64,000 nt of DNA, from positions 1,674,001-1,738,000 of the forward strand of contig NZ_CP108131.1 in assembly GCF_036203305.1 (NCBI RefSeq), in the 5' to 3' direction. A program made the position numbers and the translations under genes. The notes under the pieces are model-generated. The model was given only the letters and a program-made list of their open reading frames with translations. It was not told where the DNA came from and did not search any database. Within the stretch, counting starts at the first letter, position 1; each line of letters begins with the position of its first letter. Shown here piece after piece: positions 24,013 through 47,733 of the stretch. The stretch comes from Streptomyces sp. NBC_00190. GTDB taxonomy: Bacteria > Actinomycetota > Actinomycetes > Streptomycetales > Streptomycetaceae.

Positions 24013-24041
24013 GGGGAGGGCGTACGTCCCCCGCCCTCCCC
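24013..24041 (-). terminator. Hairpin ending the 24-gene minus-strand operon
   Basis: Perfect 10-bp arms GGGGAGGGCG (24013-24022) and CGCCCTCCCC (24032-24041) with a 9-base loop, 25 bases after the stop of the last gene (24067). No U-tract. Confidence 0.6.
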
Positions 24042-24066
24042 GCACACGCTACCCAGATTCCGGCCG

Positions 24067-24408
24067 TCAGCCGCCGAATCCGGCAGTCTGCCGCCAGATT
24101 CGGCCATCGCGGACGACAAGTGTCCCGAACGCGTGCTCCGGTTCACCGTTCAGGTTCATGATCGCCCGGTAGAAGATGGTGTCGTCCGTCTCGATGTACT
24201 CCTGGAGTTCCACCAGCGTGGGCTTCACGGTGAGATAGCCGGTGAACGTCTCGCGAACGGCGTCGATGCCCACCGAGACCCCCTCGAAGCGCAACAGCAC
24301 CGCGTCGTCGGTGTAGTTCTTCATGACCGCCTCGATGTCCAGGGCGGCCAGCGCTTCCATCTGGCGGACGAACACCGGGTGCAGCTTGGAGATGTCGTAC
24401 TTGGCCAT
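24067..24408 (-). CDS. SnoaL/NTF2-like protein (operon end)
   Basis: A 113-residue small cone-shaped-fold protein: helix-rich start (MEALAALDIEAVMKNYTDDAVLLRFEG) and strands ending in AFGTLVVRDGRIWRQTAGF. The ATG at 24406-24408 has GGAG six bases upstream. An alternative ATG at 24421-24423, directly after the kinase stop, lacks a ribosome site. It is one of four such proteins in this operon. The fold hosts isomerases, hydrolases and ligand-binding proteins, so no reaction is assigned. Confidence 0.75.
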   Translation of the reverse strand: MAKYDISKLHPVFVRQMEALAALDIEAVMKNYTDDAVLLRFEGVSVGIDAVRETFTGYLTVKPTLVELQEYIETDDTIFYRAIMNLNGEPEHAFGTLVVRDGRIWRQTAGFGG

Positions 24409-24423
24409 GTCGACTCCGTTCAT

Positions 24424-25950
24424 TCAACTGGTGGAGGAACTGCTGGAGGGGCTGGTCGGGGAACTGGTCGATGTGGGTGTTTCGGCAGGTGAGGCGCAGG
24501 ACTGGGCGCTCCCGGCGAACGGCAGCCGCACGACCATCCGGGTCTCGCCCGGGCGCGAGCGGGCCGTGATCGACCCGTGGTGCCGCTGGGTCACGATGCG
24601 GTAGCTGAGGTGCAGCCCCAGGCCCGTGCCCTTGCCCACGTCCTTGGTCGTGTAGAAGGGTTCGAAGATCCGCGGCAGGGATTCCTCCGGGATTCCGCGG
24701 CCCGTGTCGGTGATCTCCACGACCATGCAGACGCCTTCGGCGCGGGCGCGCAACGTGAGCACGCCGGCCCCTTCCATGGCCTCGGCGGCGTTGTCGACCA
24801 GGTTGGTCCACACCTGGTTCAACTCGCTCGGATAGCCCGTCAGTTCGGGCAGGTCCGGCTCGTACGCGCGCACGATGCTGATCCCGGCGAGCTTGGCACG
24901 CAGCACGACCAGCGTGTTCTCCAGACCGTCGGTCACCGGGAAGCGCTGTTCGGGCGCGCGGTCGAGATTGGCGTAATCCCGGGTGGCGGAGACGAGTTGG
25001 GAGATGCGCGGGCCGGCCGCCCGTAGTTCCGCGGCGAGCGAGCGGATCTCCAGCAGCGCCGCCAGGTGGTCCAGGGCGACGGCGAGGGCGGGCTCGCCGA
25101 CGCCCTCCAGCCGCTCCAGCAGCCAGCCCAGCTCCAGCCCGAGGTCCGCCACTCCCGAGCCGAGCAGGCCGGACCGTTCGGTGCCCGCCTCCTCCGCCCA
25201 GTCGGCGATCTCCTCCTCGGCGTCGGCCTGGGCGAGCGGGTCGGTGATGTCCGGCGGCGGCAGCTTGTCCAGTTCCTCCGCGAGCCGGTCGAAGACGGAG
25301 CGCTCCGCGCCGCTGGCGGCCGCGCCCCAGGCCTGGGCGGTGCGGGTGAGCCGGTCGAGGGCGGGAGCCAGCTCCTGCGCGGCCCGGGCCACGGCGGCCG
25401 CCGGGTTGTTCAGCTCGTGGGCCAGGCCCGCGGCGAGGGTGCCGAGCGCCTCCACGGTGGCCCGCTTGCGGGCCTGCACCTCGGAGGACTTGATCCGCCA
25501 GGCCAGTACGGGGATCAGTACGGCGGCCACCCCGTGGCAGCGGGTCAGCATCTCGAAGAAGACCGGCTTCGCGTAGGCCACGACGGTGGTCGACGGCCCG
25601 CTCGCCGCCGCGGTGGCCACGTAGGAGCCCTCGGTCAGCAGCGGCAGTTCGCCGGTGAACCGGTGGGCGGCCGACGGTTTGCCGTCGTGGTCCTCGGCGG
25701 AGGCGCTCTCCTCCTCGGTGGAGTGCCGGGTGAGCACCTCCTCCCGGCCGTCGACGACCTTGGTGACGACCAGCCCGCCCGAGAGCAGGACGTGGAAGCC
25801 GGTCGCCTCCTCGCCGTCCCGGAAGAGCACCTCGCCGTCGGCGAGCACCCGGGGCTCGGAGACCGAGACCAGCCAGTCCAGCTGGTCCTCGGTGATACCG
25901 GCGAAGATCTCCAGCCCGCGCAGCGCGGACCTCAGTTCCAGGGCGTTCAC
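24424..25950 (-). CDS. Sensor histidine kinase with N-terminal cyclic-nucleotide-binding-like domain
   Basis: A 508-residue soluble kinase. Residues 8-135 resemble a cNMP-binding domain (FAGITEDQLDWLVS, ADGEVLFRDGEEATGFHVLLSGGL). The DHp helix has H178 in LAAGLAHELNNPAAAV and the HATPase domain has NLVDNAAEAM, ITDTGRGIPE and KGTGLGLHLS. The tail ends in a Ser/Thr/Pro-rich stretch. GTG at 25948-25950 overlaps the MFS stop in GTGA. No response regulator is encoded in the operon. The receiver-flavoprotein across the divergent promoter (48211-49923) is a possible partner, by inference only. Confidence 0.85.
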   Translation of the reverse strand: MNALELRSALRGLEIFAGITEDQLDWLVSVSEPRVLADGEVLFRDGEEATGFHVLLSGGLVVTKVVDGREEVLTRHSTEEESASAEDHDGKPSAAHRFTGELPLLTEGSYVATAAASGPSTTVVAYAKPVFFEMLTRCHGVAAVLIPVLAWRIKSSEVQARKRATVEALGTLAAGLAHELNNPAAAVARAAQELAPALDRLTRTAQAWGAAASGAERSVFDRLAEELDKLPPPDITDPLAQADAEEEIADWAEEAGTERSGLLGSGVADLGLELGWLLERLEGVGEPALAVALDHLAALLEIRSLAAELRAAGPRISQLVSATRDYANLDRAPEQRFPVTDGLENTLVVLRAKLAGISIVRAYEPDLPELTGYPSELNQVWTNLVDNAAEAMEGAGVLTLRARAEGVCMVVEITDTGRGIPEESLPRIFEPFYTTKDVGKGTGLGLHLSYRIVTQRHHGSITARSRPGETRMVVRLPFAGSAQSCASPAETPTSTSSPTSPSSSSSTS

Positions 25951-27203
25951 GCGGGACTCCCCTCGGCCCGGGTGCGGGCGGCGAGCCGCAGGGTGACCAG
26001 CAGGGCCAGCGCGCACACCCCGGCGACGGCGGCCATGAAGCCGACCGAGGTGCGGTGCAGCCCGTGGATGTTGGTGAGCATCCCGGCGAGGACCGCCGGC
26101 ACGCTCATCGCGAGGTACGCGAAGACGTATACGGCAGCGGTCAGTTCGCCGCGGTGCGCGGGGTCCGCGAGCGCGCTCAGCGCCCGGAAGGAGCCGAGGA
26201 AGGCGGCGCCCCAGCCGCTGCCGAGGACCGCCGTGGCCACCAGGAACACGGCGGCCGAGCCGAGACCCAGCGCGAGCAGGACCAGGGCGAGCCCGGCGAG
26301 CAGTCCGCACAGCCCGAGCACGGCCGTGTGCAGGGCCTCGGTGCGGCCCAGCATCAACTGGGCCGCGGTGGCGGCGCCCGCGAGGAGTGCGACCGTGGCG
26401 CCGCCGACGAGGTAGTTGGTCGACTCCAGGAGCGAGAGGGCCAGGTGCGGGCCCAGCGAGAGGTAGAAGCCGCCCACGGACCAGACGGCGACGATGGTCA
26501 GGACGAGGACGGCGAACCGGCCGCGGGCGCCGGCCGGCACGTGAATCCGGTGCGGGACCACCCGGAAGCGGCCACCCGCCCCCGGTGCGCTCTCGCGCAT
26601 CCGGACCACGCCGACCAAGGTCACGGCGAAGGCCCCGACCAGCAGCAGGTAGCTCAGTACGGTCGGCGCGGGCGCGTACTGGACGAGGAGGCCGGCCCCG
26701 ATCCCGCCGAGCCCGATCCCCACGGTCGGCCCGGCGCTGTTGACCTGGGCGCCGAGCGCGGGCCGGGACACGGGGCTGAGTTCCAGCAGGGCGGCGCCCA
26801 TCGCCCCGGTGGCCAGGCCCACGGCGAGCCCCTGCACGGCGCGGGCGGCGAGCAGCAGCCCGAGCCCCTGGGCCGAGGCGAACAGGCCCATCGAGACGAT
26901 CGCGAGGAGCAGGCCGGCGGCCAGCACCGGGCGCCTGCCGAGGGTGTCGGACAGCGACCCGAACAGCAGGAGCCCGGCGAGCACGGTGACCGCGTACAGC
27001 GCGAACACCACCGTGATCATGCCGGAGGACAGGTCCCACTTCTCCTGGTAGAGCACGTAGAGGGCGGAGGGCACGGAGGAGGAGAGCATCAGCAGGACGA
27101 GGACCGCGCCCACCACCCAGAAGCCGGAACCTCTGGGCGCACTGGCCGCTGGTGCGGCTGGGTGCACGCTGACTCCCGTGGTCGTTTTCGACATGTCGGC
27201 CAC
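25947..27203 (-). CDS. MFS transporter
   Basis: A 418-residue, roughly 12-helix transporter. The MFS loop 2-3 motif is visible as FGSLSDTLGRRPVLAAGL, and QGLAVGLATGAMGAAL lies near helix 4. It resembles drug/small-molecule exporters, but the substrate is unknown. GTG at 27201-27203 follows GGGGGAG; an ATG at 27192-27194 is an alternative. Its stop overlaps the kinase start, and it lies 51 bases after the molybdenum hydroxylase FAD subunit gene. Confidence 0.82.
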   Translation of the reverse strand: MADMSKTTTGVSVHPAAPAASAPRGSGFWVVGAVLVLLMLSSSVPSALYVLYQEKWDLSSGMITVVFALYAVTVLAGLLLFGSLSDTLGRRPVLAAGLLLAIVSMGLFASAQGLGLLLAARAVQGLAVGLATGAMGAALLELSPVSRPALGAQVNSAGPTVGIGLGGIGAGLLVQYAPAPTVLSYLLLVGAFAVTLVGVVRMRESAPGAGGRFRVVPHRIHVPAGARGRFAVLVLTIVAVWSVGGFYLSLGPHLALSLLESTNYLVGGATVALLAGAATAAQLMLGRTEALHTAVLGLCGLLAGLALVLLALGLGSAAVFLVATAVLGSGWGAAFLGSFRALSALADPAHRGELTAAVYVFAYLAMSVPAVLAGMLTNIHGLHRTSVGFMAAVAGVCALALLVTLRLAARTRAEGSPA

Positions 27204-27254: not shown

Positions 27255-28082
27255 TCAGGCGAGGGCCTGGGCCCTCGCCAGCGCGCGGGCCGTGAGCACC
27301 CCCGCGAGGTGGCCGAGGTATTCGGCCGAGGTGCCGCGCCCGGGGACGAAGAGCTCCCGGGGCTCGGCGCGGAACGCCGCGAGTACGGCGTCCGTGGTGT
27401 ACGGGCCCCCGCGCAGCCGGTCCTCGACCGCGCGCAGCCGCAGCGGGCGGGCGGTGGCTCCGGTGACGGCGATGCGCGGTCCGTCGGGGGTGATCCGTAC
27501 GGCGGTGGCGCACACCGGGTAGCGGGTGGCCCGGTCGGCGGTCTTCTCGAAGGCGGCGGCCCGTCCCGCGGCGGGCACCAGCAGGGCGGTGACGACCGTG
27601 CCGGCGGGTGCGCCGGCGGCCGCGAACTCCTCGGCGGGTACGGTCGACCGCCCGCCGGGACCGGCGAGTTCGACCTCGCCGTCGGCGGCGATGGCGGCGA
27701 CCGGCAGGTCGGTGGCCCGGCCGCCGGCGGCGAGGTTGCCGCCGACGGTACCGAGGTTGCGGACCTGGGGGTCGCCGTTGGCGCGGGCCGCGGCGGCCAG
27801 TTCCGGTGCCCCGGCGAGCACCAGCGGGTCGGCGGAAAGCTCGGCGAGCGTGGTGAGGGATCCGATCCGCAGCCGCGGTCCGTCGGGGGTGCGCGTGATG
27901 CCCCGCAGCTCCTCCAGCCGCCGGATGTCGACGAGCAGCCCGGCCTGGTCGGCGCCGGCACGCAGGTCGGGCAGCAGGCTCTGGCCTCCTGCCAGTACCC
28001 GGGCGCCGCGCGTCCCGGACAGCAGGGTGAGCGCCTCGTCGAGGCCCGCGGGCCGGACGTAGTCGAATTCGGTGAGGATCAC
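27255..28082 (-). CDS. Molybdenum hydroxylase FAD subunit (CoxM/XdhB type)
   Basis: A 275-residue FAD-binding subunit of the CO dehydrogenase/xanthine dehydrogenase family. It has VLAGGQSLLPDL and NLGTVGGNLAAGGRATDLP, the two FAD-contact motifs of the vanillyl-alcohol-oxidase fold, and a C-terminal CODH_C-like end. The GTG at 28080-28082 overlaps the large-subunit stop in GTGA, so the genes are coupled. It passes electrons from the Fe-S subunit to a cytoplasmic acceptor. The substrate of the complex cannot be assigned. Confidence 0.9.
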   Translation of the reverse strand: MILTEFDYVRPAGLDEALTLLSGTRGARVLAGGQSLLPDLRAGADQAGLLVDIRRLEELRGITRTPDGPRLRIGSLTTLAELSADPLVLAGAPELAAAARANGDPQVRNLGTVGGNLAAGGRATDLPVAAIAADGEVELAGPGGRSTVPAEEFAAAGAPAGTVVTALLVPAAGRAAAFEKTADRATRYPVCATAVRITPDGPRIAVTGATARPLRLRAVEDRLRGGPYTTDAVLAAFRAEPRELFVPGRGTSAEYLGHLAGVLTARALARAQALA

Positions 28083-30484
28083 TGGGCTTCCCCTCTCAGG
28101 CGGCGCCAGACCTTCTCGGGGGTGAGCGGCATGTCGATGTGCGTGACGCCCAGGTCGGAGAGGGCGTCGACGACGGCGTTGACGACGGCCGCGGCGGGCG
28201 GGACGGTGGCGATCTCGCCGGCGCCCTTGGCGCCGAGCGGGTTGTGCGGGCTGGGCGTGCACGTCTTGTCGAGGGAGAAGAACGGCGCGTCGGTGGCGCG
28301 CGGCAGGGCGTAGTGGTTCAGGTCGGCGCTGACGAGCAGCCCGTTCTCGTCGTACTCGGCGGCCTCCATGAGGGCCTGGCCGAGCCCGTGGACGATGCTG
28401 CCCTCGATCTGGCCGAGGACCACCTTCGGGTTGCCGATGTTCCCGGCGTCGTCGACCGCGGTGTAGGCGACGACCTCGGTCTCGCCCGTCAGCTCGTCCA
28501 CCTCGACGACCGCGACGTGGGTCCCGAAGGGGTAGTTGAAGTCCGGCGGGTCGAAGTGGGTGGTCTCGTCGAGCGCGGGCTCGATCTCCGGGGGCAGACC
28601 CCAGCCGTACCACATGGCCATCGCCAGCTCGGCGAAGGTCTTGGTGTTCTCCGCGTTGCCCTCCTCGAAGACCTTGCCGCCCTCGTAGACGACCTTGTCC
28701 TCGGGGATGCCCAGGAAGACCGCGCCGGCCTTGACCAGCTTGGCCTTGATCTTCCGGGCGGTGAGGGCGACGGCGGGCGCGGCCATGCTGTAGGAGCGCG
28801 AGCCGTAGGTGCCCTGTCCGTACGGGGCCTTCAGCGTGTCCCCCTCGTACACCTGGACCTGGGCCGGGTCGATGCCGAGCTCGTCGGCGGCGACCTGCGC
28901 GAAGACGGTGCCGTGGCTCTGGCCGGTGGAGGCGGAACCGACGGTGACGGTGACCTCGCCGGTCGGGTGGACGCGGACGTTCGCGCTCTCCCAGGTGCCG
29001 CCGAGCATGCCCTCCTTGGACATCCGGGTGGAGGGGCCGACCCCGCAGATCGCGACGTACGTGGCGATGCCGACGCCCAGGCGCTTGCCGCGGGTGCGGG
29101 CCTCCGCCTTGCGTGCGGGCATGTCGGCGTAGCCCGACAGCTCGATGGCCCGGTCGAAGTTCAGCTGGTAGTTCCCGGAGTCGTAGGTCCAGCCGAGGCC
29201 GTTGTCGTACGGGAACTTCTCCGTCGGCACCAGGTTCTTGCGCCGCACCACCGCCGGGTCCATGCCGATCTCGGAGGCGTACCGGTCGACCAGGCGTTCC
29301 ATGAGGAAGGCGGCCTCGGCGCGCCCGCTGCCGCGCTGGGCGCCGAGCGAGACGGTGTTGGTGAAGGCGGCGTAGACCTCGCAGAAGGCGGCGTCGATGT
29401 CGTACATCCCGCTGATGGAGCGGCCCATCAGGGCGGTGGCGACGCCGGGGCCGATCGTCGAGGGGTACGCGCCGAGGTTGGCGTAGCTCGTGCAGCGCAC
29501 GGCGGTGATGCGGCCGTCGCGGGTGCCGGCGAGGACGACGTGCTGGCGGTGGTCGCGGCCCTGCACGGTGGAGTTCATCAGCCCGGTACGGGTGTCCACC
29601 CACTTCACGGGCCGGCCGAGCGCCTTGGACAGCAGCAGGACCAGCGCCATGTCGGGGTACAGGTACCCCTTGGTGCCGAAGCTGCCGCCGACGGTCGGGG
29701 CGATCACCCGGAGTTTGTTGAAGGGGATGCCGAGGACCAGCGCGGAGAGCAGGAAGCGGTGGTTGTGCGGTCCCTGGGTGGAGGCGTAGAGGGTGTACTC
29801 GCCGGTGGCGGCGTTGTAGTCCCCGACCGCTCCGCGCGGCTCGATGGGGCTGTTGATGGTGCGCTGGTTCACGAGGTCGAGCTCGACGGTGACCTCGGCC
29901 TCGGCGATGGCCGCGTCGGTGCGGTCCTTGTCGCCGCAGGTCCAATACGCGTTCAGATTGCCCGGGACGGCCTCGTGCAGCTGGGGCGCGCCCTCGGCGA
30001 GCGCCTCGTCGGCCCGGGTCACCACGGGCAGCGGCTCGTACTCGACGGCGATGGCGGCCAGCGCGGCGGCGGCCTGGCGCGGGGTCTCGGCGACCACCAC
30101 GGCGATGGGGTCGCCGACGTGGCGCACGGTGTCGCCGGTGAGGACCGGGCGGGCGCCGGGAAGTCCGTAGGGGTGGGGCGGGAAGTGGCTCTCGACCCCG
30201 CCGGGTATCCAGATGCACGGCAGCGGCATGACGTCGGTGAAGTCGGCGGCGGTGGCCACCTTCAGCACGCCGGGCAGCTGCTCCGCCGCCTTCGTCTCGA
30301 TGGAGAGGATCTTCGCGTGGGCGACCGGGCTGCCCAGGATGGCCATGTGGGCCGTGCCCGGCAGGTCGATGTCCCCGACGTACGTGGCCTCGCCGCGCAG
30401 GAGCTGCGGGTCCTCGCGGCTGTCCAGCGGCTTGCCGAGGATGCCGTTCTCCTGGAGAGCGCTCTCCCCCGTCGCTGTGGTCAT
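28079..30484 (-). CDS. Molybdenum hydroxylase large (molybdopterin-binding) subunit, CoxL/aldehyde dehydrogenase type
   Basis: An 801-residue subunit. Visible marks are [22 protein letters not shown] at the start, [32 protein letters not shown] and the C-terminal GAKGAGEI containing the base-catalytic Glu. The AYRCSFR loop of true form I CO dehydrogenase is absent: the aligned loop reads AQRGSGR. It is therefore a form II-like enzyme, more probably an aldehyde, purine or other heteroaromatic hydroxylase. The ATG at 30482-30484 follows AGGAGG. Confidence 0.9.
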
Positions 30485-30489
30485 GTCCC

Positions 30490-31005
30490 TCACGCCTCCT
30501 GTCCGGCAGCGGCGGAGCCGGCGGGCGCTTCGGCGCGGGCGGCCGCGCAGGCCCTCTGCACTCCGCGGACGACGCTGTGGTAGCCGGTGCAGCGGCACAG
30601 GTTGCCGGTGAGCCACTCACGGATCTCGGGCTCGGTGGGGGCCTCGCCGCCGGCCGTGCTGTCGACCAGCTCGCCGAGGGCCATGACCATGCCGGGGGTG
30701 CAGAACCCGCACTGGGTGCCGTGCTCCTGGCGCAGTGCCTCCTGCAGCCCGGTCAGTTCGCCGCCGGCCGTGGTGACGCCCTCGATGGTGGCGACCTCGG
30801 AGCCGGCGGCCGAGGCGGTGAGGATCAGGCAGCTCTTGACCGACCTGCCGTCCAGCTGGACGACGCAGGTGCCGCACTGGCCGGTGTCGCAGCCGACTTT
30901 GGTGCCGGTCAGTCCGAGGCCGTCGCGGAGTCGTTCCACGAGCAGTTCGTTCGGCTGCGCCGAGAACTGCTCGGGTCTTCCGTTCACGTTCAGTGTGATA
31001 TCCAT
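30490..31005 (-). CDS. Molybdenum hydroxylase [2Fe-2S] subunit (CoxS type)
   Basis: A 171-residue subunit with a plant-ferredoxin-type cluster (C39, C44, C47, C59) and a second helical-domain cluster (C99, C102, C137, C139; QCGFCTPGM and LCRCTGYH), exactly the CoxS pattern. A short Ala-rich tail follows. It precedes the large-subunit gene by five bases. Its start lies inside the end of the NADP-binding oxidoreductase gene (16-base overlap). Subunit order S-L-M differs from the M-S-L order of the classical cox operon. Confidence 0.93.
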   Translation of the reverse strand: MDITLNVNGRPEQFSAQPNELLVERLRDGLGLTGTKVGCDTGQCGTCVVQLDGRSVKSCLILTASAAGSEVATIEGVTTAGGELTGLQEALRQEHGTQCGFCTPGMVMALGELVDSTAGGEAPTEPEIREWLTGNLCRCTGYHSVVRGVQRACAAARAEAPAGSAAAGQEA

Positions 31006-36753: not shown

Positions 36754-38885
<2,132 letters not shown>

Positions 38886-38889
<4 letters not shown>

Positions 38890-39273: not shown

Positions 39274-41097
39274 CTACTTCTTGGCCACTGGACGCAGCCG
39301 GACCTTGACCTTCACCCGCCCCTGGACATCGGGCAGCCGAACGGTGAGGGCTTCGGCGTCGAAGTCCGTGTACGGCTTCTCGTCGATCTCGACGGACGCG
39401 ATCCGCACCGAGCCGGCCGGGAGCAGGTCGGGCGAGACGCGCAGGACGCGGTCGGGCAGGTTGGTCGGGTCGGGCTGGAAGTGGAAGTCCATCTCCCGGC
39501 CGTTGACGAGGAGGTTGTTGTAGACGGCGGAGAGGTAGCAGAGCTCCGCCGAGTGGTACATGGACATCGAGTGGCTGCCCTTGAGCCGCTCGGTGCCGAG
39601 CAGGTACGGCGTTCCGCTGGCGAGCACGTTGAAGTAGACGGCGCCCTCGTCGTGGTCGAGGAAGAAGGTGTTGTAGAAGGCCTGCGCCTGCCGGGCCTCG
39701 CGCAGGTTCGCCTCGCCGCCGACCGTGCCGTTCAGGATGAGGTAGGCGAGGATCGCCTGCTCCTGCTGCCACCAGGCCTTGCGGTCGTGCCAGGCGAAAC
39801 GATACGTCTCCTGGTCTCCGGACTTGACCCGCTCGACGACGTCGTACCAGCCGCCGCGCTGCACGTCGCTGCCGACCGCCGGCATGATCTCGCCGATCTT
39901 CTTGGCGAGCTGCTCGTACGCCGGCTTGGCCTTCAGCGAGTTCATCCGCATCAGGTTCCAGGCGATCTTCAGGTTGTGGCCGACGACGGCGCGGTCCTGC
40001 TGCCAGCTGTGCGCCTTGTCGTGCGACCAGTCGCGGTTGAAGCGCTCCTGGACGAAGGGGCTGTTCTTGTAGTCCGGGAACTTGTCCGCGATGGTGTCGA
40101 AGGTGTACTCGAGGAAGTCGGCGTACTTCTGGTCGCCGGTCGCCAGGTACAGGTTGATCAGGTACGCGGGCGCGTGGTCGCCGACCGAGTTCCAGTTCTT
40201 GCGCTCGGCGTTCTCACCGAGGGACTCGTGGTCGGCGCTGAAGAGGATCGGGTCGATGTGCGAGTAGTAGCCGCCCTGCTCCGGGTCGAAGAAGAACTTG
40301 TCGAACAGCCGGATGGTGGCGTCCGCGTCGTTCTTGATCCGGATGTCACCGGTGACGCGGTACGTCTGGATGGGGCCGGCCAGCGCGTAGATCTGCTCGT
40401 ACATCGGGATCGCGTCGTAGTCGTCGGAGAACTCCGAGGTGAACAGCTTTCGCTCGCTGTCCCCGTCGACGCTGATGCCGTGGTACCAGAAGACCACGTC
40501 CTCCTCGCTGTCCACGACCCGCATGTGCTTGCGCAGGTACTCGGTGCCGCGCTCGGCGACCTCCAGGTACTCGTCCTTGCCGGTCAGCAGGTAGGCCGAG
40601 GCCATGCCGTAGACCAGGCGGGAGATCGTGTCGGTCTCCTGGACGTGGCTCGCGGTCTTGTCACCGCCGAGCCGGATCTCGGTGCGGTACTCGGTGAAGT
40701 CCACCGGACCGTCGCCGAACTGCGCCCGCTTGTAGAAGTCGGCCAGCGACTCGATCTGCTTGATCCACCAGCTGGGCTCCTCGAAGCGGAAGTCCTCGGC
40801 GCCGCGGCCCAGGAACACCAGGCGCTTGGCGTCGAAACGCCCGCCGTGCTCCGGGTAGTGGACTCCGTAGACGAAGAGGAACCGGCCGGGCGAAAGCATC
40901 TCGTCGATGTGCCCGGACGCGTCGATGTAGGGCTCGTCCAGGTTGCGCACCAGCTCGGCGCTGGGGTCACCGGCGAGCGAGACGTCGAACGCACGCCCGT
41001 CGGAGGTCTTCAGACCCAGTACGCGCGAGCCGGAGTCGAAGCGGGTGACGTATCCGGCGATGGTGTCGGAGAAGGAGAAGCTCACGGCATCCGCCAT
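39274..41097 (-). CDS. AGE-family epimerase/isomerase-like protein (N-acylglucosamine 2-epimerase superfamily)
   Basis: A 607-residue protein. The central part (about 110-520) has alpha/alpha-barrel features of AGE/cellobiose epimerases: repeated His/Trp/Tyr-rich helices such as WWIKQIESLADFYKRAQFG, FWYHGISVDGDSER and NWNSVGDHAPAYLINLYLATGD. An extra N-terminal about 100-residue beta domain and a C-terminal beta domain (VRLPDVQGRVKVKVRL) make it longer than ordinary AGE epimerases (about 400). The ATG at 41095-41097 with AAGGACG is preferred to an upstream GTG. The sugar substrate is unknown. Confidence 0.75.
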   Translation of the reverse strand: MADAVSFSFSDTIAGYVTRFDSGSRVLGLKTSDGRAFDVSLAGDPSAELVRNLDEPYIDASGHIDEMLSPGRFLFVYGVHYPEHGGRFDAKRLVFLGRGAEDFRFEEPSWWIKQIESLADFYKRAQFGDGPVDFTEYRTEIRLGGDKTASHVQETDTISRLVYGMASAYLLTGKDEYLEVAERGTEYLRKHMRVVDSEEDVVFWYHGISVDGDSERKLFTSEFSDDYDAIPMYEQIYALAGPIQTYRVTGDIRIKNDADATIRLFDKFFFDPEQGGYYSHIDPILFSADHESLGENAERKNWNSVGDHAPAYLINLYLATGDQKYADFLEYTFDTIADKFPDYKNSPFVQERFNRDWSHDKAHSWQQDRAVVGHNLKIAWNLMRMNSLKAKPAYEQLAKKIGEIMPAVGSDVQRGGWYDVVERVKSGDQETYRFAWHDRKAWWQQEQAILAYLILNGTVGGEANLREARQAQAFYNTFFLDHDEGAVYFNVLASGTPYLLGTERLKGSHSMSMYHSAELCYLSAVYNNLLVNGREMDFHFQPDPTNLPDRVLRVSPDLLPAGSVRIASVEIDEKPYTDFDAEALTVRLPDVQGRVKVKVRLRPVAKK

Positions 41098-41098: not shown

Positions 41099-41575
41099 TC
41101 ATGCACCGTCCTTGTCGTGAGAGCCCTCGTGAGTACGGTCGTGAGTGCTGTCGTCCTCGTATCCCTGGCTGACTTCGACGATCACTCCGTCGGGGTCGCG
41201 GATCCACACGGTCCGCCAGCCGCAGATGAAGTCGTCGAAGTCCAGCGGCCCCAGGGTCACTTCGGCCGCGTCGCCCAGCTCGGCCAGGAACGCGTCCACG
41301 CTGTCGGTCTGGAAGGCCAGGTGGCGCATCCGCCCCGGGGCCTGCGGCCCGTCTCCGGCTACCGCTGGGGGGACCCCCAGTGCCGGGCCGGCCGGTTCGG
41401 CGCCGGCCGCGAAGAGCTCCAGGTACGCGTCCCCCTTGCGCAGGAACACGATCTGGGCCTCCCCCAGGTCGACCACCCGGGCCCGGGTGAAGCCGAAGTA
41501 GCGGGTGTAGAACTCCTCGGTGGTCTTCTGGTCCGTGCAGTTCAGGCCCACGTGCGACCAGACCAGCCCGGCCAT
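41099..41575 (-). CDS. VOC-family (glyoxalase/dioxygenase fold) protein
   Basis: A 158-residue protein with two beta-alpha-beta-beta-beta units: SHVGLNCTDQKTTEEFYTRYFGF (metal-site His near residue 8) and RHLAFQTDSVDAFLAEL, then WIRDPDGVIVEV (metal-site Glu). It belongs to the glyoxalase I/extradiol dioxygenase fold; reaction unknown. A His/Asp-rich tail (THDRTHEGSHDKDG) is unusual and might bind metal. ATG overlaps the DJ-1 gene stop in TGATG. Confidence 0.82.
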   Translation of the reverse strand: MAGLVWSHVGLNCTDQKTTEEFYTRYFGFTRARVVDLGEAQIVFLRKGDAYLELFAAGAEPAGPALGVPPAVAGDGPQAPGRMRHLAFQTDSVDAFLAELGDAAEVTLGPLDFDDFICGWRTVWIRDPDGVIVEVSQGYEDDSTHDRTHEGSHDKDGA

Positions 41576-42186
41576 CAGGCCTGCCCCCGGCCCCGCCCGG
41601 CCGCGATCAGCTCGATGATCCGGCGGGCGAAGAGGTGGTGGTGGGCGCCGGTGCGGCCGGTGACCAGGTCCCCGTCGACCACCACGTCCTCGTCGACGTA
41701 CTCTCCGCCCATGTTGCGGACGTCACCGATGAGGTTGTTGTGGCAGACCACCTTGCGGCCGCGGATCTTGCCGGGGATCGAGGAGGCCAGCCACATGCCG
41801 TGGCAGATGATCCCCTTGAGGACCGTCGGCTCCTCGAAGGCCCGGCGCAGCAGCTCCGTCGCCGGGGCCAGCTGGTCCACGTCCTCGGTGTAGCGCAGCC
41901 GGTCGGCCACCATGCCCGAGGGCACGATGATCGCCGAGTAGCGGCGCAGGTCCTCGTCGCTCAGCCCCTCCAGGGACTGGCTGGCGGTGAAGGGCGCCCG
42001 GTACTCGTGGCCGGAGAAGGTGATGGAGTCGTTGCCCCACAGCCGGGTCAGGAAGTCGACCTCGGCGCCTTCCTCCGCGAACCGGTGCTGGTAGTAGAAG
42101 ATCTCCGGCTCGTAGAAGTCGCTCTCGACCAGGACCGCGATGCGGGTCCCGCTCAGCGCGCCCTCACGCAGGACGGCATCAGGCAC
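41575..42186 (-). CDS. DJ-1/PfpI-family protein
   Basis: A 203-residue DJ-1/PfpI protein. E26 (VESDFYEPEIFYY) and the elbow C128-H129 (GIICHGMWLAS) match the family catalytic dyad. Members are deglycases, peptidases or glyoxalases, so function is not settled. GTG at 42184-42186 follows AAGGGGG and overlaps the GMC oxidoreductase stop by eight bases. Confidence 0.85.
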   Translation of the reverse strand: MPDAVLREGALSGTRIAVLVESDFYEPEIFYYQHRFAEEGAEVDFLTRLWGNDSITFSGHEYRAPFTASQSLEGLSDEDLRRYSAIIVPSGMVADRLRYTEDVDQLAPATELLRRAFEEPTVLKGIICHGMWLASSIPGKIRGRKVVCHNNLIGDVRNMGGEYVDEDVVVDGDLVTGRTGAHHHLFARRIIELIAAGRGRGQA

Positions 42187-43807
42187 GGGACACCCCCTTC
42201 AGGAAGTCCGCCGCGCGCTCGGCGATCATCGCGATGGCGGTGTGGCAGTTGCCCGACGGGACCGCGGGCATCACGCTCGCGTCGACGACGCGCAGGTTCC
42301 GTACGCCGTGCACCCGCAGCTCGGGGTCGACGACGGAGAGGTCGTCGATGCCCATCCGGCAGGAGCCGGCCTGGTGGTGGTAACTCTCCGACTTCTGCTT
42401 CGCGAAGGTGCGCAGGTCGTCGTCGGTCACGGTGCCCGGCCCGGGCTGGAGCTCCTGCTTGTACCAGGGTGAGAAGGCGGAGGTCGCGAAGATCTCCCGG
42501 GCGATCTTGATGCCCTGCACCATCCGCTCCAGGTCCCAGCGGTCGCCCAGGTAGTTCGGGTTGATCAGCGGGTGGGCCAGCGGGTCGGCGCTGGCGAGCT
42601 TGATCCAGCCGCGTGAGACGGGCCGTACGACACCGGGCAGGATGGACACCGTGTTCGGGTGGTCCTGGCCGACGATCACGTCGAAGGGCACGTGGACGAA
42701 GGCGATCTGCAGGTCCGGCGCGGGCAGTCCCGGCTGGGAGGACAGGAACAGAGCGCTCTCCGACAGGTTCTGCGCCGGCGGCGGGAGCTCCTGGGTGACC
42801 TCGGCCATCAGACCGGTCAGGACGTGGTTGTGGAAGTTCTCGCCGACCCCGGGCAGGGCCGCGGTGACCTCGATGCCGTGTTCGCGCAGCTGGTGCGGGT
42901 GCCCGATGCCGGAGAGCAGCAGCAGCTTGGGGGATTCGATCGCCCCGGCGGCCACGATCACCTCCCGGCGGGCCCGTACGGTGTGCGGGCCGGGCTCGGC
43001 GGTGGCGCTGTGGCTGTCGCGGACGGTGCGGCCCGGGACGTCGCTGCCCGAAAGCGTGGCGGGGGCCTGGAGCTGGACGTACTCGACGCCCGTGCAGGTG
43101 TCCCCGTCGAACAGCAGCCGGGTGCTCTGCGCACTGGTGCGCAGGGTCAGGTTGGGGCGGTCGAGCGCGGGCTCCAGGTACGCGGCGAGGGTGCCCTGGC
43201 GGCGGCCGTCGGCCACGTCGATGTGGTGCCAGCCGGTGCCGAAGAGGCCGCGGCGGGGACCGTCGGTGTTGAAGTCTGCGATCTCCTGGTGCCCCAGCTC
43301 GACGGCCGCGTCGATGAAGGCGCGGGAGACCGGGTTGGGGCCGTGCTGCCCGGCGTTGGTGATGCGCTGCGGGCCGCGGGTGCCGGTGGTGGCGGCGGTG
43401 GCGTCCTCCTGGCCCTCCAGGAGGGAGAAGTACGGGAGCACGTCCTCGTGCGCCCAGCCGGCCGCGCCCTGGTAGGCCCAGTTGTCGAAGTCCGAGGCGT
43501 GGCCCCGGATGTGCATCATGATGTAGAGGTTGCTGCTGCCGCCGGGGGCCTTGCCGCGCGGTTCGTACGTGCGGCGGCCGCCCAGGCCGGGCTGCGGGGT
43601 GCTGGTGTAGCCCCAGTCCACGGGCCCGCCGAGCAGCTTGTACCAGGAGGACGGGTCGTCCACCTCGGGCGGGATACGGGATCCGCCCGCCTCCAGGACG
43701 AGGACGCTGACGTCCGGGTCCTCGGAGAGGCGGCTCGCCAGCACGCTGCCCGCGGTGCCGGATCCCACGACGACGTAGTCGTACTCTTCGGTCTCGGAGA
43801 CACCCAC
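42179..43807 (-). CDS. GMC-family FAD oxidoreductase (choline dehydrogenase-like)
   Basis: A 542-residue flavoprotein: an N-terminal FAD motif VVGSGTAGSVLASRLSE, the GMC signature GKAPGGSSNLY-x-M near residue 80, and the C-terminal catalytic His region ESYHHQAGSCRMG with a second conserved His in SGNCHTAIAMIAERAA. GMC enzymes oxidise primary alcohols to aldehydes, which fits an operon with an aldehyde dehydrogenase. The GTG at 43805-43807 has GGGGGGAG in good position; a longer frame upstream overlaps the NTF2 gene and is not needed. Confidence 0.9.
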   Translation of the reverse strand: MGVSETEEYDYVVVGSGTAGSVLASRLSEDPDVSVLVLEAGGSRIPPEVDDPSSWYKLLGGPVDWGYTSTPQPGLGGRRTYEPRGKAPGGSSNLYIMMHIRGHASDFDNWAYQGAAGWAHEDVLPYFSLLEGQEDATAATTGTRGPQRITNAGQHGPNPVSRAFIDAAVELGHQEIADFNTDGPRRGLFGTGWHHIDVADGRRQGTLAAYLEPALDRPNLTLRTSAQSTRLLFDGDTCTGVEYVQLQAPATLSGSDVPGRTVRDSHSATAEPGPHTVRARREVIVAAGAIESPKLLLLSGIGHPHQLREHGIEVTAALPGVGENFHNHVLTGLMAEVTQELPPPAQNLSESALFLSSQPGLPAPDLQIAFVHVPFDVIVGQDHPNTVSILPGVVRPVSRGWIKLASADPLAHPLINPNYLGDRWDLERMVQGIKIAREIFATSAFSPWYKQELQPGPGTVTDDDLRTFAKQKSESYHHQAGSCRMGIDDLSVVDPELRVHGVRNLRVVDASVMPAVPSGNCHTAIAMIAERAADFLKGVSRA

Positions 43808-43821: not shown

Positions 43822-44205
43822 TCAGCCCTGGCTCAGGACCTGGAAGGGGACGGTGTCGTGGTAGTTCGCCATGTAGGCGATCTTCCCGTCCGCGATCCGG
43901 AAGAAGTTCATGACCTCGGCCTCGATGGACTCTCCCGAGGCGCTGACCGCGGTCAGGTGGGAGACGGCCGCGGCCTTCTCCCCGTCGACGAGGAAGTGCA
44001 CGGGCTCGTTCCGGAAGACCCGGTACATGGTGCCCATGCCCTTCATCATCGAGCGCAGCAGTTCGAGGCCCTCGATGTGGCCGGCCAGCTGCTCGTCCAT
44101 GACCTGGTCGTCGGCGAACAGGTCGCACCAGCGGTCCCAGTCCCCCGCGTTGGCGTACTCGTAGTACTTCGTGAGAATCTCTCGCGCATCCATGGCGTCG
44201 CTCAT
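43822..44205 (-). CDS. SnoaL/NTF2-like protein
   Basis: A 127-residue NTF2-fold protein (REILTKYYEYANAGDWDRWCDLFADDQV; end MNFFRIADGKIAYMANYHDT), a pattern of the SnoaL/ketosteroid-isomerase-like group. It starts four bases after the preceding gene and ends 14 bases before the GMC gene. An alternative ATG at 44193 is possible. Role unknown; see the two relatives just upstream. Confidence 0.8.
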   Translation of the reverse strand: MSDAMDAREILTKYYEYANAGDWDRWCDLFADDQVMDEQLAGHIEGLELLRSMMKGMGTMYRVFRNEPVHFLVDGEKAAAVSHLTAVSASGESIEAEVMNFFRIADGKIAYMANYHDTVPFQVLSQG

Positions 44206-44209
44206 TCCC

Positions 44210-44665
44210 CTATCGGTCCCTGCGGGTTCCGTCCGGCGCGAACGGCGCCCAGAACTGGCTGAAGGCGGACGCCGAGTCGCCGAAGAGCCCGTCGCGGCCC
44301 TCGACGATCCGGCCGTCCTGCCACCGCATGAAGTGGAAGACCGGGTAGTCCATCCGCTCGTACGGGGACCGGCTGTCCTCGGCCGCGCCGTCCCGCAGGG
44401 CGACGTTGCGGCACACGTCGGCGGAACAGTCCTCGCCGACGAGCACCGCTTCCAGGTCCATCCGGAAGGTGCCGCCCGTGAGCTTGTGGGTCTGCCCCAT
44501 CAGCTCCAGGAAGGCGTCCAGGCTCTCGTACCAGCCGGCGAGCGGGTGGTTGCCCGGTACCAGCCAGCGCAGGTCCTCGGAGTAGTACTCCAGGATGCGC
44601 GCCCGGTCGCCGGAGCCCAGCGCGGCGTAGGCCGCCCGCACCCGCTCCCGTGTCACTTCGGTCAT
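44210..44665 (-). CDS. SnoaL/NTF2-like protein
   Basis: A 151-residue NTF2-fold protein (VRAAYAALGSGDRARILEYYSEDLRWLVPGNHPLAGWYESLDAFLELM). The Trp/Pro-rich pocket strand and FHFMRWQDGRIVEGRD end match SnoaL-like polyketide-cyclase relatives. The ATG has GAAGGAG upstream. It is the second of three consecutive NTF2 genes that differ clearly from each other, so they are not recent duplicates. Confidence 0.8.
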   Translation of the reverse strand: MTEVTRERVRAAYAALGSGDRARILEYYSEDLRWLVPGNHPLAGWYESLDAFLELMGQTHKLTGGTFRMDLEAVLVGEDCSADVCRNVALRDGAAEDSRSPYERMDYPVFHFMRWQDGRIVEGRDGLFGDSASAFSQFWAPFAPDGTRRDR

Positions 44666-44687
44666 CGTGGCTTCTCCTTCGCCCGCG

Positions 44688-45122
44688 TCAGAGGGAGCCG
44701 GAACCGGGCATCGGAGCCAGGTCGTTGACGGTGTACTGCTTGATCAGCGGTCCGTCGGGACCGGCGACCACGGTCCAGGTCTGGTCGGCGTCGAAGCCGA
44801 GCCACTGGCTCCGCGCCGCCGGCGGGTCCCAGATCTTGGCCTGCCAGTTGACGAGCACCCGGACGATCGCCCGGTCGCCCTCGATGACGGGCTCCACCTT
44901 CGTGACCGTGTGCACCTCGTCGAAGAACCGGTTCGTGACGGCCTCGTACCAGCGGCCGAAGCCCTGGTGGCCGAGGAAGGTGTCCTCGGGGACCTTGAAC
45001 TCCAGGTCCTCGGTGATCAGGGCGAGCACCTCGTCCAGCCCTACGTGCCTGTCCAGCGCCACGTACCAGTCCTCGGCGAAACTGCGGATCGCGTCCTCGG
45101 TCAACTGCCGCTCGGCGGGCAT
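44688..45122 (-). CDS. SnoaL/NTF2-like protein
   Basis: A 144-residue NTF2-fold protein (DAIRSFAEDWYVALDRHVGLDEVLALITEDLEFKVPED). GAGGAG lies ahead of the ATG at 45120-45122. First of three NTF2 genes following the TPP enzyme; adjacency suggests they act on, or bind, intermediates of that pathway, but no catalytic Asp/His set can be fixed by eye. Confidence 0.8.
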   Translation of the reverse strand: MPAERQLTEDAIRSFAEDWYVALDRHVGLDEVLALITEDLEFKVPEDTFLGHQGFGRWYEAVTNRFFDEVHTVTKVEPVIEGDRAIVRVLVNWQAKIWDPPAARSQWLGFDADQTWTVVAGPDGPLIKQYTVNDLAPMPGSGSL

Positions 45123-45162
45123 GCGGTCTCCTCCTGTTCCGTGTGCTGCGTGACTGCTCTGG

Positions 45163-46806
45163 TCAGATCTGGATGTCGACGAGGAACGGACCGGGGTGGG
45201 CCAGCATCCGGCTCACGGCGGCGGCCGCCTCGTCCGGCTTCTCCACCCGCATCCCGCCGGCGCCGAGCGACCGGGCCAGCCCGGCGAAGTCGATCTCGGG
45301 GTGGGAGAGGTCGAAGGAGCCCGGGAATCCGTGCTCGGGGATGTCCCGCTCCCGCCAGTACTGGGCGATGTTGTCGTCCAGCAGCCGGTACTTGCGGTTG
45401 TTGCAGACCACGAACTTGGCCTCGATGCCGTGCCGGGCCGCCGTCCACAGCGCCTGGTAGGTGTACATCGACCCGCCGTCGCCCGCGAAACCGACGACGA
45501 GCCGGTCCGGGCGGGCGAGCTTGGCGCCGACCGCGCCCGGGAAGCCCACGCCCAGCGATCCGCCCCGGGTGAGGTGGTAGTCGCCCGGGCGCTCGGCCGG
45601 CAGGTACTTCGTGACCAGCGGGGAGGTGGTCAGCGCCTCGTCGAAGACGATCAGGTCCCCGCCGGTGCGCTCGGCCAGGGTCCGCAGGAAGACGGTCATC
45701 GGCGTGCCGTCGTCCGTCTGCGCCTGCCCGTCGCGGACCCTTTCCCGGGTCCGTACGTCGAGCCGGGCCGCCGCGGCCGCCCGCCGCTGCGGGGTCAGCC
45801 GGTGTTCCAGTACGCCGGCCAGCGCGCGCAGCGCCTGCTTGGGATCCGCGGCGAGGCCGAGGTCCACCGGGTGGTTCTTGGCGATCTCGTAGGCGTTGAG
45901 GTCGATGTGGACGACCTTCGCGCCTTCCCGGAAGGGGCTCTCCAGCTCGGGGAACACCTCCGGGAAGACATAGGTGCCGACGATCAGCACCCCGTCGGCG
46001 TCCCCCACGAGGTCCTTGCTGTGCGGGCCGAACATGTGGCCCGTCTGGCCCCGCCGCAGCGGGTGCGAGGCCGCGATGTTGACCTCGGAGGAGTCGACCT
46101 CGTACACGTCGGCGCCCAGCAGCTCGGCGACCGCCGCCAGTTCGTTCTGCGCCCCGGAGAGCGAGACCCCGTCCCCGATGAGGACGACCGGCCGCTCGGC
46201 GGAGGCGAGCAGCTCGGCCGCCCGCCCCACCGAGGCCGGCGAGGGCGCCACGTCCGTGAGCGGCACCGTGGCGGGCAGGACGGGCTCGGAGTTGAGCTCG
46301 TCCAGCACGTCCATCGGCAGCGCCACGAACACGGGCCCGCGGGGCGGGGTGAGCGCGATCTTCACGGCCCGCCGGATGGTGCGGAGCACGGAGTTCCGGT
46401 CGGTGACCCGGGTCGCGTACTTCGTCACCGGCTTGGCCATCGCCACCAGGTCGGACGCCATCTGCGCGTCCATGGCGTCGTAGCGCACCCCGGCGTCACC
46501 GGCGACCACGACGAGCGGGGTGTGGCCGCGCAGCGACTGGTAGAGCATGCCGATGCCGTTGCCCAGCCCCACCCCGGAATGCAGCTGGAGGAGCGCCGCG
46601 CCGCCGGTCGCCCGGGCGTATCCGTCGGCGATACCGGCGGCCACGGTCTCCTGGAGGGCGAGGATGTACTGGAAGTCCTCCGCCGCGTCCACAGCGTCGA
46701 GGAATCCCTGTTCCACCGTCCCAGGATTTCCGAACATCACATTCAGGCCGTCGGCCTTGAACTGCTCGATCAGCCTTTCCCGTCCGGGAGTGGCTCCGGT
46801 GTTCAT
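45163..46806 (-). CDS. Thiamine-diphosphate-dependent decarboxylase, benzoylformate decarboxylase-like
   Basis: A 547-residue TPP enzyme. Catalytic E53 (LQETVAAG), the TPP/Mg motif GDGGSMYTYQALWTAARHG with the distal Asn run VVCNN, and H76 in LQLHSGVGLGNG match benzoylformate decarboxylase, whose LHSAAGTGN carries the catalytic His. It would decarboxylate a 2-oxo acid to an aldehyde. Acetolactate-synthase-like function is less likely given the His. ATG at 46804-46806 follows GAGGGGGAG; earlier starts would add a short basic tail. The likely product aldehyde is a substrate for the ALDH in the operon. Confidence 0.85.
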   Translation of the reverse strand: MNTGATPGRERLIEQFKADGLNVMFGNPGTVEQGFLDAVDAAEDFQYILALQETVAAGIADGYARATGGAALLQLHSGVGLGNGIGMLYQSLRGHTPLVVVAGDAGVRYDAMDAQMASDLVAMAKPVTKYATRVTDRNSVLRTIRRAVKIALTPPRGPVFVALPMDVLDELNSEPVLPATVPLTDVAPSPASVGRAAELLASAERPVVLIGDGVSLSGAQNELAAVAELLGADVYEVDSSEVNIAASHPLRRGQTGHMFGPHSKDLVGDADGVLIVGTYVFPEVFPELESPFREGAKVVHIDLNAYEIAKNHPVDLGLAADPKQALRALAGVLEHRLTPQRRAAAAARLDVRTRERVRDGQAQTDDGTPMTVFLRTLAERTGGDLIVFDEALTTSPLVTKYLPAERPGDYHLTRGGSLGVGFPGAVGAKLARPDRLVVGFAGDGGSMYTYQALWTAARHGIEAKFVVCNNRKYRLLDDNIAQYWRERDIPEHGFPGSFDLSHPEIDFAGLARSLGAGGMRVEKPDEAAAAVSRMLAHPGPFLVDIQI

Positions 46807-46839
46807 CGAACTCCCCCTCATTCCCACGAGTTGCCGGAA

Positions 46840-47664
46840 TTACCAGCCGTAACGGGTGAGACCGTCCTCCAGGACTTCCACGATCTTCTGTCCCGTGAGG
46901 TACGAGTCAGGGGTGGACCGTCCGGTCACGAACGGGAAGTCGACGATGACCGAGACCGGCTTGCCGAAATTCCCGTGGTACGCGCCGCGCGGGCCCGTGG
47001 CGTCGCGCAGGATGTACTCCAGCGGATACGGCGGCGGCCCCATGTTGAAGTCGGTACCGAGGAATCCGGTGCCGTCCTTGTAGTCGTACTCCTTGCAGTG
47101 GCCGGTCACGTGCTTGCCCCAGATGATGCTCCTGCGGTCGCTCCAGTCCCGCGCGAAGGCGAGGCAGGCGACCCCGTAGCACTCCGCGGCCACGACCTTG
47201 CCGGCCCTCTTGAAGGCCAGGATCAGGGCGTGCACGCGCTCGTTGTTGGCGAGGTCGGCGATCGGGCCGCTGCCGCCGACGATGAGGATCGCGTCGTATC
47301 CGGCGATGTCGGCGTCGAGCTTGTCCAGATCGCGGTGGTACTGCTCCAGCTTCCGCAGATAGCCCTCGTCGCTCGTGTACGGGCGCTCCGGGACCCACGC
47401 CTCGATGTCGAGCGGCGAGTCCAGCCGGCTCGACTGCTCGAACTCCCGGCCCAGCCGGGCGTTCTCCTCTGTGGTGACCGAGCGTCCCAGTGGAGGATCG
47501 ATGTAGTTCGCGTCGAGGCTCGGCGGAAGAGCGTGTGCACGCTTTCCGGTCGGCGTGGCGAATATGACCTCGTAGCCCCGCTCATCGAACTTCGATACGG
47601 GCCCTATCAGTTCTTCGGCCCAGTAACCGTGTTCGGAGACAATGACCAGAATCTTTCTGCTCAC
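46840..47664 (-). CDS. DJ-1/PfpI-superfamily protein (first gene of the operon)
   Basis: A 274-residue class I GATase-like protein. E17 (YWAEELIGP), the GGSGPIADL oxyanion loop and C162 (VVAAECYGVACLAF, Cys followed by Tyr instead of His) are visible. It differs from the other two DJ-1 proteins of the operon, being longer at the C-terminus with a GKHVTGHCKEYDY segment. The GTG at 47662-47664 has GGAGGAA upstream. A promoter-like TTGACG-N17-CAGTGT lies just ahead. Confidence 0.82.
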   Translation of the reverse strand: MSRKILVIVSEHGYWAEELIGPVSKFDERGYEVIFATPTGKRAHALPPSLDANYIDPPLGRSVTTEENARLGREFEQSSRLDSPLDIEAWVPERPYTSDEGYLRKLEQYHRDLDKLDADIAGYDAILIVGGSGPIADLANNERVHALILAFKRAGKVVAAECYGVACLAFARDWSDRRSIIWGKHVTGHCKEYDYKDGTGFLGTDFNMGPPPYPLEYILRDATGPRGAYHGNFGKPVSVIVDFPFVTGRSTPDSYLTGQKIVEVLEDGLTRYGW

Positions 47665-47704
47665 GTATTCCTCCAGGCGCCGCCTGTTGTCGTTGGCGTC
47701 CCCC

Positions 47705-47733
47705 ACACTGGCCGCGCCCGGAGCCTTCGTCAA
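47705..47733 (-). promoter_or_regulatory. Putative promoter of the 24-gene operon (TTGACG-N17-CAGTGT)
   Basis: On the minus strand TTGACG (47728-47733) and CAGTGT (47705-47710) are 17 bases apart, a near-consensus principal-sigma promoter. The start near 47698 would give a leader of about 34 bases to the GTG at 47664. It is close to a set of inverted repeats (47748-47820). Confidence 0.45.

Follow-up and report, generated by a model that had tools for sequence, protein, structure and literature searches.

We analysed a 64,000-nucleotide stretch of the 8.9 Mb genome of Streptomyces sp. NBC_00190 (contig 1, positions 1674001–1738000; hereafter the window) and found that 24 successive minus-strand genes, running from 47664 down to 24067 by gene calling, probably form an icfG-type operon, i.e., a partner-switching signalling system built into a glycogen and sugar-carbon gene set and enlarged in one Streptomyces lineage. 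This reading draws on gene content, gene order and active residues, and on a promoter-like site and an end hairpin, all directly visible in the DNA. A first-pass annotation of the window had proposed the 24-gene run and a complete partner-switching module, and both were borne out. It had also considered the set undescribed, which fails for the core (AGE-STAS-GlgX-STAS-RsbW-RsbU) because gene content and order match the icfG operon, known from Synechocystis. The core and its immediate neighbours are:

41575..42186, minus strand: PfpI/DJ-1 protein b, in the slr1854-type position (PF01965)
39274..41097, minus strand: AGE-superfamily protein of 607 residues, slr1855 counterpart
38886..39236, minus strand: STAS1, anti-sigma-antagonist-like, slr1856 counterpart (PF01740)
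36754..38889, minus strand: GlgX glycogen debranching enzyme, slr1857 counterpart (TIGR02100)
36426..36737, minus strand: STAS2, slr1859 counterpart (PF01740)
35956..36429, minus strand: RsbW/SpoIIAB-like kinase, HATPase_c_2, slr1861 counterpart (PF13581)
34718..35974, minus strand: RsbU/IcfG-like PP2C phosphatase with a degenerate receiver-like N-terminus (PF07228; alignment of 15 rows)
33974..34717, minus strand: MinD-like ATPase, Walker A RGGTGKS

The icfG cluster of Synechocystis PCC 6803 (slr1852–slr1862) shares with the window the AGE-STAS-GlgX-STAS series, the PP2C phosphatase, the SpoIIAB-like kinase and a DJ-1/PfpI gene ahead of them. The same content stands in Synechocystis salina (L103 in our numbering of loci) in the order PfpI-AGE-STAS1-GlgX-STAS2-RsbU-RsbW. 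Kinase and phosphatase are swapped in PCC 6803 relative to the window, but the window's order is present in several other cyanobacterial loci. Identity to the S. salina counterparts is 63% for the AGE protein and 62% for GlgX. Could GlgX be an ordinary housekeeping copy? We rejected this, since GlgX is nearer to the copies in icfG-type cyanobacterial loci (62–64% identity) than to either of its two paralogues in the same genome (43% by tblastn, 47% in a second comparison); identity to the Nostocales copies at loci lacking the switch was 50% (two measured). GlgX scored 696.8 bits against TIGR02100 (cut-off 640.9). No carboxymuconolactone-decarboxylase (slr1853-type) domain was seen among the genes of the window's unit, unlike the icfG cluster. 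An all-against-all search of neighbouring genes returned mostly antisense or spurious open reading frames (ORFs), and one family in 17 cyanobacterial loci resembled slr1852/slr1853, judged from one sequence.

The work on Synechocystis is cited here from excerpts of the reports. In these, slr1852–1862 is a single salt-repressed operon and Slr1855 an N-acetylglucosamine 2-epimerase (PMC8670252); slr1856 and slr1859 encode putative anti-sigma antagonists, slr1857 an isoamylase, slr1860 the phosphatase IcfG, and slr1861 a kinase that binds SigC and serves as an anti-SigC factor (PMC12329169). Both STAS proteins are substrates of the kinase, and IcfG removes the phosphate from Slr1856; mutants in icfG or slr1859 are compromised with glucose and with low carbon (PMC12329169, citing Shi 1999 and Gonzalez 2001). 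In vitro, Slr1856 is the better of the two substrates (PMC11619594), IcfG is listed together with Slr1856 (PMC6213207), and the targets of the two STAS proteins are still called unknown (PMC12329169). By analogy, icfG in Synechocystis lends outside support to the glycogen and sugar-carbon link claimed for the Streptomyces genes. In the open-licence literature searched, icfG was found discussed for Synechocystis only, and likewise IcfG in the excerpts of PMC6213207; nothing was found joining partner-switching, MinD-like and anti-sigma, no Streptomyces operon joining glycogen debranching, an anti-sigma factor antagonist and an epimerase, and none with glgX and rsbW. The actinobacterial version, with its MinD-like ATPase, its DJ-1, thiamine pyrophosphate (TPP) enzyme, GMC, SnoaL and molybdenum-hydroxylase genes, its end sensors, palindromes and IS701-like neighbour, seems to be undescribed.

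The residues on which partner switching depends are in place. The phosphoacceptors Ser56 of STAS1 and Ser57 of STAS2 are kept in 69/70 and 66/67 rows, window included; both are short, single-domain proteins. The kinase retains its N-box (E56 and N60, each in 63/64), and the motifs of the phosphatase are kept across its alignment. The module thereby resembles Bacillus SpoIIAA/SpoIIAB and RsbV/RsbW/RsbU in combining a kinase, a STAS phosphoacceptor and a PP2C phosphatase whose motifs are conserved, and differs from them in that two STAS genes flank a glycogen-enzyme gene and no linked sigma factor was found. How might it work? The RsbW-like kinase would phosphorylate the STAS proteins, the RsbU/IcfG-like phosphatase would reverse this on at least one of them, and the phosphorylation state would set the binding partners of kinase and STAS, as the SigC binding of the Synechocystis kinase suggests. 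In this Streptomyces lineage the core would have gained carbonyl and redox enzymes, a molybdenum hydroxylase and the MinD-like ATPase, and its ends would have acquired two likely inputs, a response regulator–thioredoxin reductase fusion (RR-TrxR) and a kinase binding cyclic nucleotide monophosphate (cNMP). From these features we infer one transcript, STAS phosphorylation, redox input and control of glycogen carbon.

Conservation argues for a single unit. A scan of genome contigs found at least 497 relatives of the AGE protein, the best 80 of which were kept as loci. AGE-STAS1-GlgX stand in order at 71 of the 80, in four phyla, and all six core genes (AGE, STAS1, GlgX, STAS2, RsbW and RsbU) are found at 62: 19/19 full Streptomyces loci, 13/14 reduced Streptomyces/Kitasatospora loci, 13/15 loci from other Actinomycetota, 2/4 from Deinococcota and Chloroflexota and 15/28 from Cyanobacteriota. 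The 18 others comprise eight loci cut by a contig end, seven Nostocales loci with GlgX-AGE-RR-TrxR-cNMP-kinase in place of the six-gene core, and three (L069, L073 and L095) that lack one or more matches for neither reason. From the first gene (DJ-1 protein a) to the molybdenum hydroxylase, gene order equals the window's in all 19 full Streptomyces loci (L043 ends before the large subunit), and the distal end is kept out to an XdhC-type gene in 6/6 close relatives. Sphaerisporangium melleum (L061), from another family, keeps the unit order without an aldehyde dehydrogenase match. S. lavendulae CCM 3239 (L042) is a laboratory strain that has the unit. The proposal of a single conserved unit is supported by this order and survived the check made of it. 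A tree of 81 AGE proteins separates the Actinomycetota from all others by a branch with support of 100; the nearest relatives of the window's protein are from Streptomyces, and S. melleum stands beside the full-unit Streptomyces, a placement that suggests transfer between families. Among 120 relatives, own genome counted, AGE was found in 16, the MinD-like protein in 11 and both in 9. In other genomes of the genus and order (L151–L157), a diverged AGE (56–59%) occurs together with GlgX. L151–L154 and L156 gave no STAS, kinase or phosphatase match at E 1e-6 within 19–20 kb, and L155 and L157 gave only a STAS2-like match.

Several observations weigh against an icfG-type operon: (i) GlgX-AGE occurs without any partner-switching match at the seven Nostocales loci, L151–L154 and L156, so the two enzymes are not tied to the switch; (ii) because only the best 80 of at least 497 AGE matches were kept, the counts lean to AGE-bearing clusters; (iii) the unit is patchy, since of 296 Actinomycetota sampled evenly, with up to four candidates per genome scored against a strict threshold, one (the own genome) gave a close AGE homologue; (iv) according to excerpts of PMC11619594, IcfG does not dephosphorylate Slr1859, and deletion of slr1856 leaves growth unaffected while deletion of slr1859 affects it, so the Synechocystis switch itself is only partly understood; (v) the phosphatase N-terminus is degenerate and receiver-like in the window, unlike Synechocystis IcfG; and (vi) a search of the ORFs of the 80 loci with thirty sigma-factor probes gave no sigma gene (E 1e-8). 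As to (v), the receiver-like N-terminus is shared with other Actinomycetota rows, differs from L103 and is variable among cyanobacterial rows, and it may not be defining for icfG-type clusters.

What does the switch act on? The best sigma-probe match across the 80 loci had an E value of 7.8e-4 (L066). The probes found each other readily; they were taken from the own genome and represent 30 of its 60 sigma matches, and distant sigma factors could be missed. No sigma factor is among the 24 genes, the window's only sigma match (17348–17551) lying outside the unit. The cognate sigma factor that a sigma-B switch would have near the cluster was not found with these probes, so the target is probably either encoded elsewhere or something other than a sigma factor. 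One alternative is direct control, in which the co-translated AGE and GlgX enzymes would themselves be the targets of STAS1 or of the MinD-like ATPase. The absence of a sigma match fits this, as do the position of STAS1 between AGE and GlgX at 71/80 loci, its 4-base overlap with GlgX in the window, and a MinD-like gene at 44/80 loci, 42 of them on the operon strand. However, the Synechocystis kinase binds a sigma factor (excerpts of PMC12329169), sigma factors are often unlinked, STAS proteins are normal kinase substrates, and the probes represent half of the genome's sigma matches. We therefore regard direct action as a possible but rather improbable output.

Two of the proteins that such direct action would involve differ from their families at a motif residue. 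The Glu of the GHNxE motif has a catalytic role in AGE epimerases. The window's AGE protein has the AGE barrel fold, and in a weak profile alignment with 8h1k its Lys377, invariant in 29/29, aligns with the Glu of the GHNSE motif; the predicted model is partly below 50 in predicted local confidence (pLDDT) near the presumed active site. The model also has extra strand-rich parts at the N- and C-terminus; these and Lys377 set the protein apart from cellobiose 2-epimerase and N-acylglucosamine 2-epimerase. The deviant Walker A of MinD/ParA proteins reads KGGxGK[ST], with a signature Lys. The window's MinD-like protein resembles the MinD/FleN ATPases (PDB 5j1j and 1hyq, 70–72 bits) as a deviant Walker-A ATPase but has Arg as first signature residue (RGGTGKS; Arg11 in 43/45 rows), in addition to its linkage to partner switching. 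The MinD-like matches at L067 and L090 lie on the other strand, 8–10 kb from AGE. MinD-like relatives (38–39%; L026) occur in two same-class genomes of 1.4–1.7 Mb without an AGE match, and the one inspected adjoins genes read as FHA-domain proteins. A metabolic switch in which the partner-switching proteins and the MinD-like ATPase take their input from thiol-redox and cyclic-nucleotide sensors and act directly, without a sigma factor, on GlgX and on an AGE-fold enzyme with a new activity is speculative and in our judgement unlikely.

Beyond the icfG cluster, the window has the MinD-like ATPase, a second sensor pair and a large set of enzymes. The remaining genes of the unit are:

46840..47664, minus strand: DJ-1/ThiJ-like protein a, start GTG 47664 (PF17124/PF01965)
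45163..46806, minus strand: TPP-dependent enzyme, benzoylformate-decarboxylase-like (Pfam TPP N, M and C)
44688..45122, minus strand: SnoaL/NTF2 protein a (PF12680)
44210..44665, minus strand: SnoaL/NTF2 protein b (PF12680)
43822..44205, minus strand: SnoaL/NTF2 protein c (PF12680)
42179..43807, minus strand: GMC oxidoreductase (PF00732/PF05199)
41099..41575, minus strand: VOC/glyoxalase-fold protein (PF00903)
33164..33904, minus strand: DJ-1/HchA-like protein c (PF01965; NF003168 under cut-off)
31646..33130, minus strand: aldehyde dehydrogenase (PF00171)
30990..31604, minus strand: F420/NAD-dependent reductase-like protein (PF03807)
30490..31005, minus strand: molybdenum hydroxylase iron-sulphur (FeS) subunit (PF01799/PF00111)
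28079..30484, minus strand: molybdenum hydroxylase large subunit (PF02738/PF20256)
27255..28082, minus strand: molybdenum hydroxylase FAD subunit (PF00941)
25947..27203, minus strand: MFS transporter (PF07690)
24424..25950, minus strand: cNMP-binding domain with histidine-kinase-like ATPase (PF00027/PF02518)
24067..24423, minus strand: SnoaL/NTF2 protein d (PF12680)

All families named at first pass are present: three DJ-1/PfpI and four SnoaL/NTF2 proteins, VOC, the TPP enzyme, GMC, aldehyde dehydrogenase, AGE, GlgX, two STAS, HATPase_c_2, SpoIIE, the MinD-like protein and a three-subunit molybdenum hydroxylase. Pfam and NCBIfam add the F420/NAD-type reductase, the MFS transporter and the cNMP-binding histidine-kinase-like protein. 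Cys210 of DJ-1 protein a (numbering of a 322-residue call) is kept in 48/48 and Cys128 of PfpI/DJ-1 protein b in 63/63. Would these enzymes turn the whole into a sigma-B-like general-stress unit for producing or removing reactive aldehydes, as had been proposed? The DJ-1, VOC, aldehyde dehydrogenase and molybdenum-hydroxylase genes are as expected, and excerpts of the literature describe slr1854, the Synechocystis DJ-1 neighbour, as general stress protein 18, butanol-induced, and place slr1853/slr1854 in an ethanol-response table. Against this, no linked sigma factor was found with the 30 probes at the 80 loci; salt repression of the icfG operon (excerpts of PMC8670252) is a poor fit to a simple general-stress unit; the mutant phenotypes in Synechocystis concern glucose and inorganic carbon (excerpts of PMC12329169); and the TPP, DJ-1, VOC, aldehyde dehydrogenase and molybdenum-hydroxylase proteins had no NCBIfam match at cut-off among the matches listed (the best 25 of 54 matches to the TPP enzyme and the best 25 of 44 to aldehyde dehydrogenase; the scan covered the molybdenum hydroxylase except its FAD subunit). 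The TPP enzyme, for instance, gave 311 bits to PRK07092, whose cut-off is 493, below what would identify a benzoylformate decarboxylase. We consider a general-stress unit unlikely; for the added enzymes, a role in stress or aldehyde metabolism is possible.

The sites at the ends of the unit are:

47748–47759, 47781–47792 and 47802–47813, no strand assigned: three palindromes ACNTCNNGANGT, a proposed operator array upstream of the promoter-like site
47705..47733, minus strand: promoter-like site TTGACG-N17-CAGTGT (TTGACG 47733–47728, CAGTGT 47710–47705)
24005..24049, minus strand: 18-pair hairpin, probable transcript end (stem scan and alignment)

The promoter-like site is exactly as first described. 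In an alignment of the window and 19 loci, TTTGACG is found in 20/20 and CAGTGT in 17/20 Streptomyces rows; in S. melleum L061 both hexamers are altered in an alignment of the divergent region. Two points weigh against it as a promoter: CAGTGT equals TATAAT at 2/6 places only, and a consensus scan of 31000–48400 missed the site. The start of DJ-1 protein a is GTG 47664, downstream of the site; we rejected ATG 47808, which the alignment does not favour, because the conserved promoter-like site would then fall within the gene. The array holds three of the four exact matches to ACNTCNNGANGT in the window, where 0.72 were expected. Ahead of DJ-1 protein a, all 19 full Streptomyces loci have at least one copy and 11/19 at least two, and L061 has three palindromes with 21-bp spacing although its remaining region has diverged. 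At the other end, the hairpin (24049–24005), claimed earlier, is the longest unbroken minus-strand stem in 23901–47900 (the runner-up has 14 pairs) and is kept in 7/7 aligned sequences with changes in both arms. It is the probable end of the transcript.

Could the run instead be a same-strand series in which several units are expressed independently? At most of L045–L060, the reduced form, no operon gene follows MinD; in L070 and L083 the genes for DJ-1 protein c and the FeS and large subunits are found on the opposite strand; and the promoter-like site is a poor consensus match, all of which would suit such a series. However, order is kept in the 19 full Streptomyces loci, the six distal ends and L061, the gaps are tight, and the longest stem stands only at the unit end. 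The gaps had been given as 0–69 bases: most of the 23 lie between −19 and 69, but that before the MFS gene is 138, or 51 with the alternative start 27203. The check for strong internal promoters and terminators took the form of a consensus scan and a hairpin scan. The first, over 31000–48400, gave no sigma-70-type site (shuffles average 0.8) and six terminator-like sites, none of them on the operon strand and together no more than expected by chance (mean 5.2); it is blind to terminators without a T run. The second placed the longest stem at the end. We consider independent units very unlikely.

The two likely sensors lie at the ends of the unit, the first of them in the divergent genes:

47948..48214, plus strand: small divergent protein, "UBPzf", no NCBIfam match
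48211..49923, plus strand: RR-TrxR, divergent (PF00072/PF07992)

An RR-TrxR match above 600 bits was found at 32/80 loci (matches of 36–70 bits at reduced loci were excluded), and a cNMP-binding kinase match above 250 bits at 11/80. The two are found jointly next to GlgX-AGE in Nostocales, and in Nonomuraea and Sphaerisporangium album they adjoin the core. From this co-occurrence we infer that RR-TrxR and the cNMP-kinase are likely thiol-redox and cyclic-nucleotide inputs. Among the open-licence literature matches listed for the RR-TrxR fusion, none bears on the unit by title or start of abstract. The small protein carries a zinc-finger label here (UBPzf) that no family match backs; in L061 and the full Streptomyces loci it again adjoins RR-TrxR. 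After RR-TrxR come genes for an ABM-domain protein and a bacterial globin (50575–51377, plus strand); they stand beside it in 18/19 and 14/19 full Streptomyces loci, respectively, and in L061, and possibly point to a redox or nitrosative link.

Beyond the hairpin lie three further genes:

23322–23969, minus strand: TMEM175-like potassium-channel gene, downstream of the hairpin
21936–23249, minus strand: IS701-family transposase-like protein (289 bits, cut-off 150)
20779..21936, minus strand: XdhC-type molybdenum-hydroxylase maturation factor (PF13478; NF045664 below cut-off)

The XdhC-type gene and the IS701-like protein have the same position in 6/6 close relatives. In the cyanobacterial loci L073 and L104, VOC and AGE have a weaker TMEM175-like match between them (81 and 109 bits). 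The IS701-like protein is found at 21/80 AGE loci (within L046–L086), 19 on the operon strand, and also at L140–L145, L151–L155 and L158; in L151–L154 it adjoins the GlgX-AGE pair. The own genome has seven IS701-like matches, the cluster-linked one included. Of 34 cluster-linked rows, a number that includes the window and in which L054 and L158 look like one locus, none has an intact version of the DDT and YREMK motifs seen in the L150 copy; the L149 copy, elsewhere in the own genome, also lacks both. The protein looks like a domesticated, catalytically dead transposase. In the open-licence literature searched, no domesticated IS701 transposase in Streptomyces was found. As binder of the palindromes it was not supported: L046–L056 have the protein and no palindrome upstream of DJ-1 protein a, L056, counted here, having no match to DJ-1 protein a.

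The comparison draws attention to the recurrent MinD-like ATPase, the AGE-like enzyme with an altered motif and the missing sigma factor. It shows the icfG operon to be a module present in members of four phyla, in some lineages of which likely redox and cyclic-nucleotide sensors accompany the switch or take its place.

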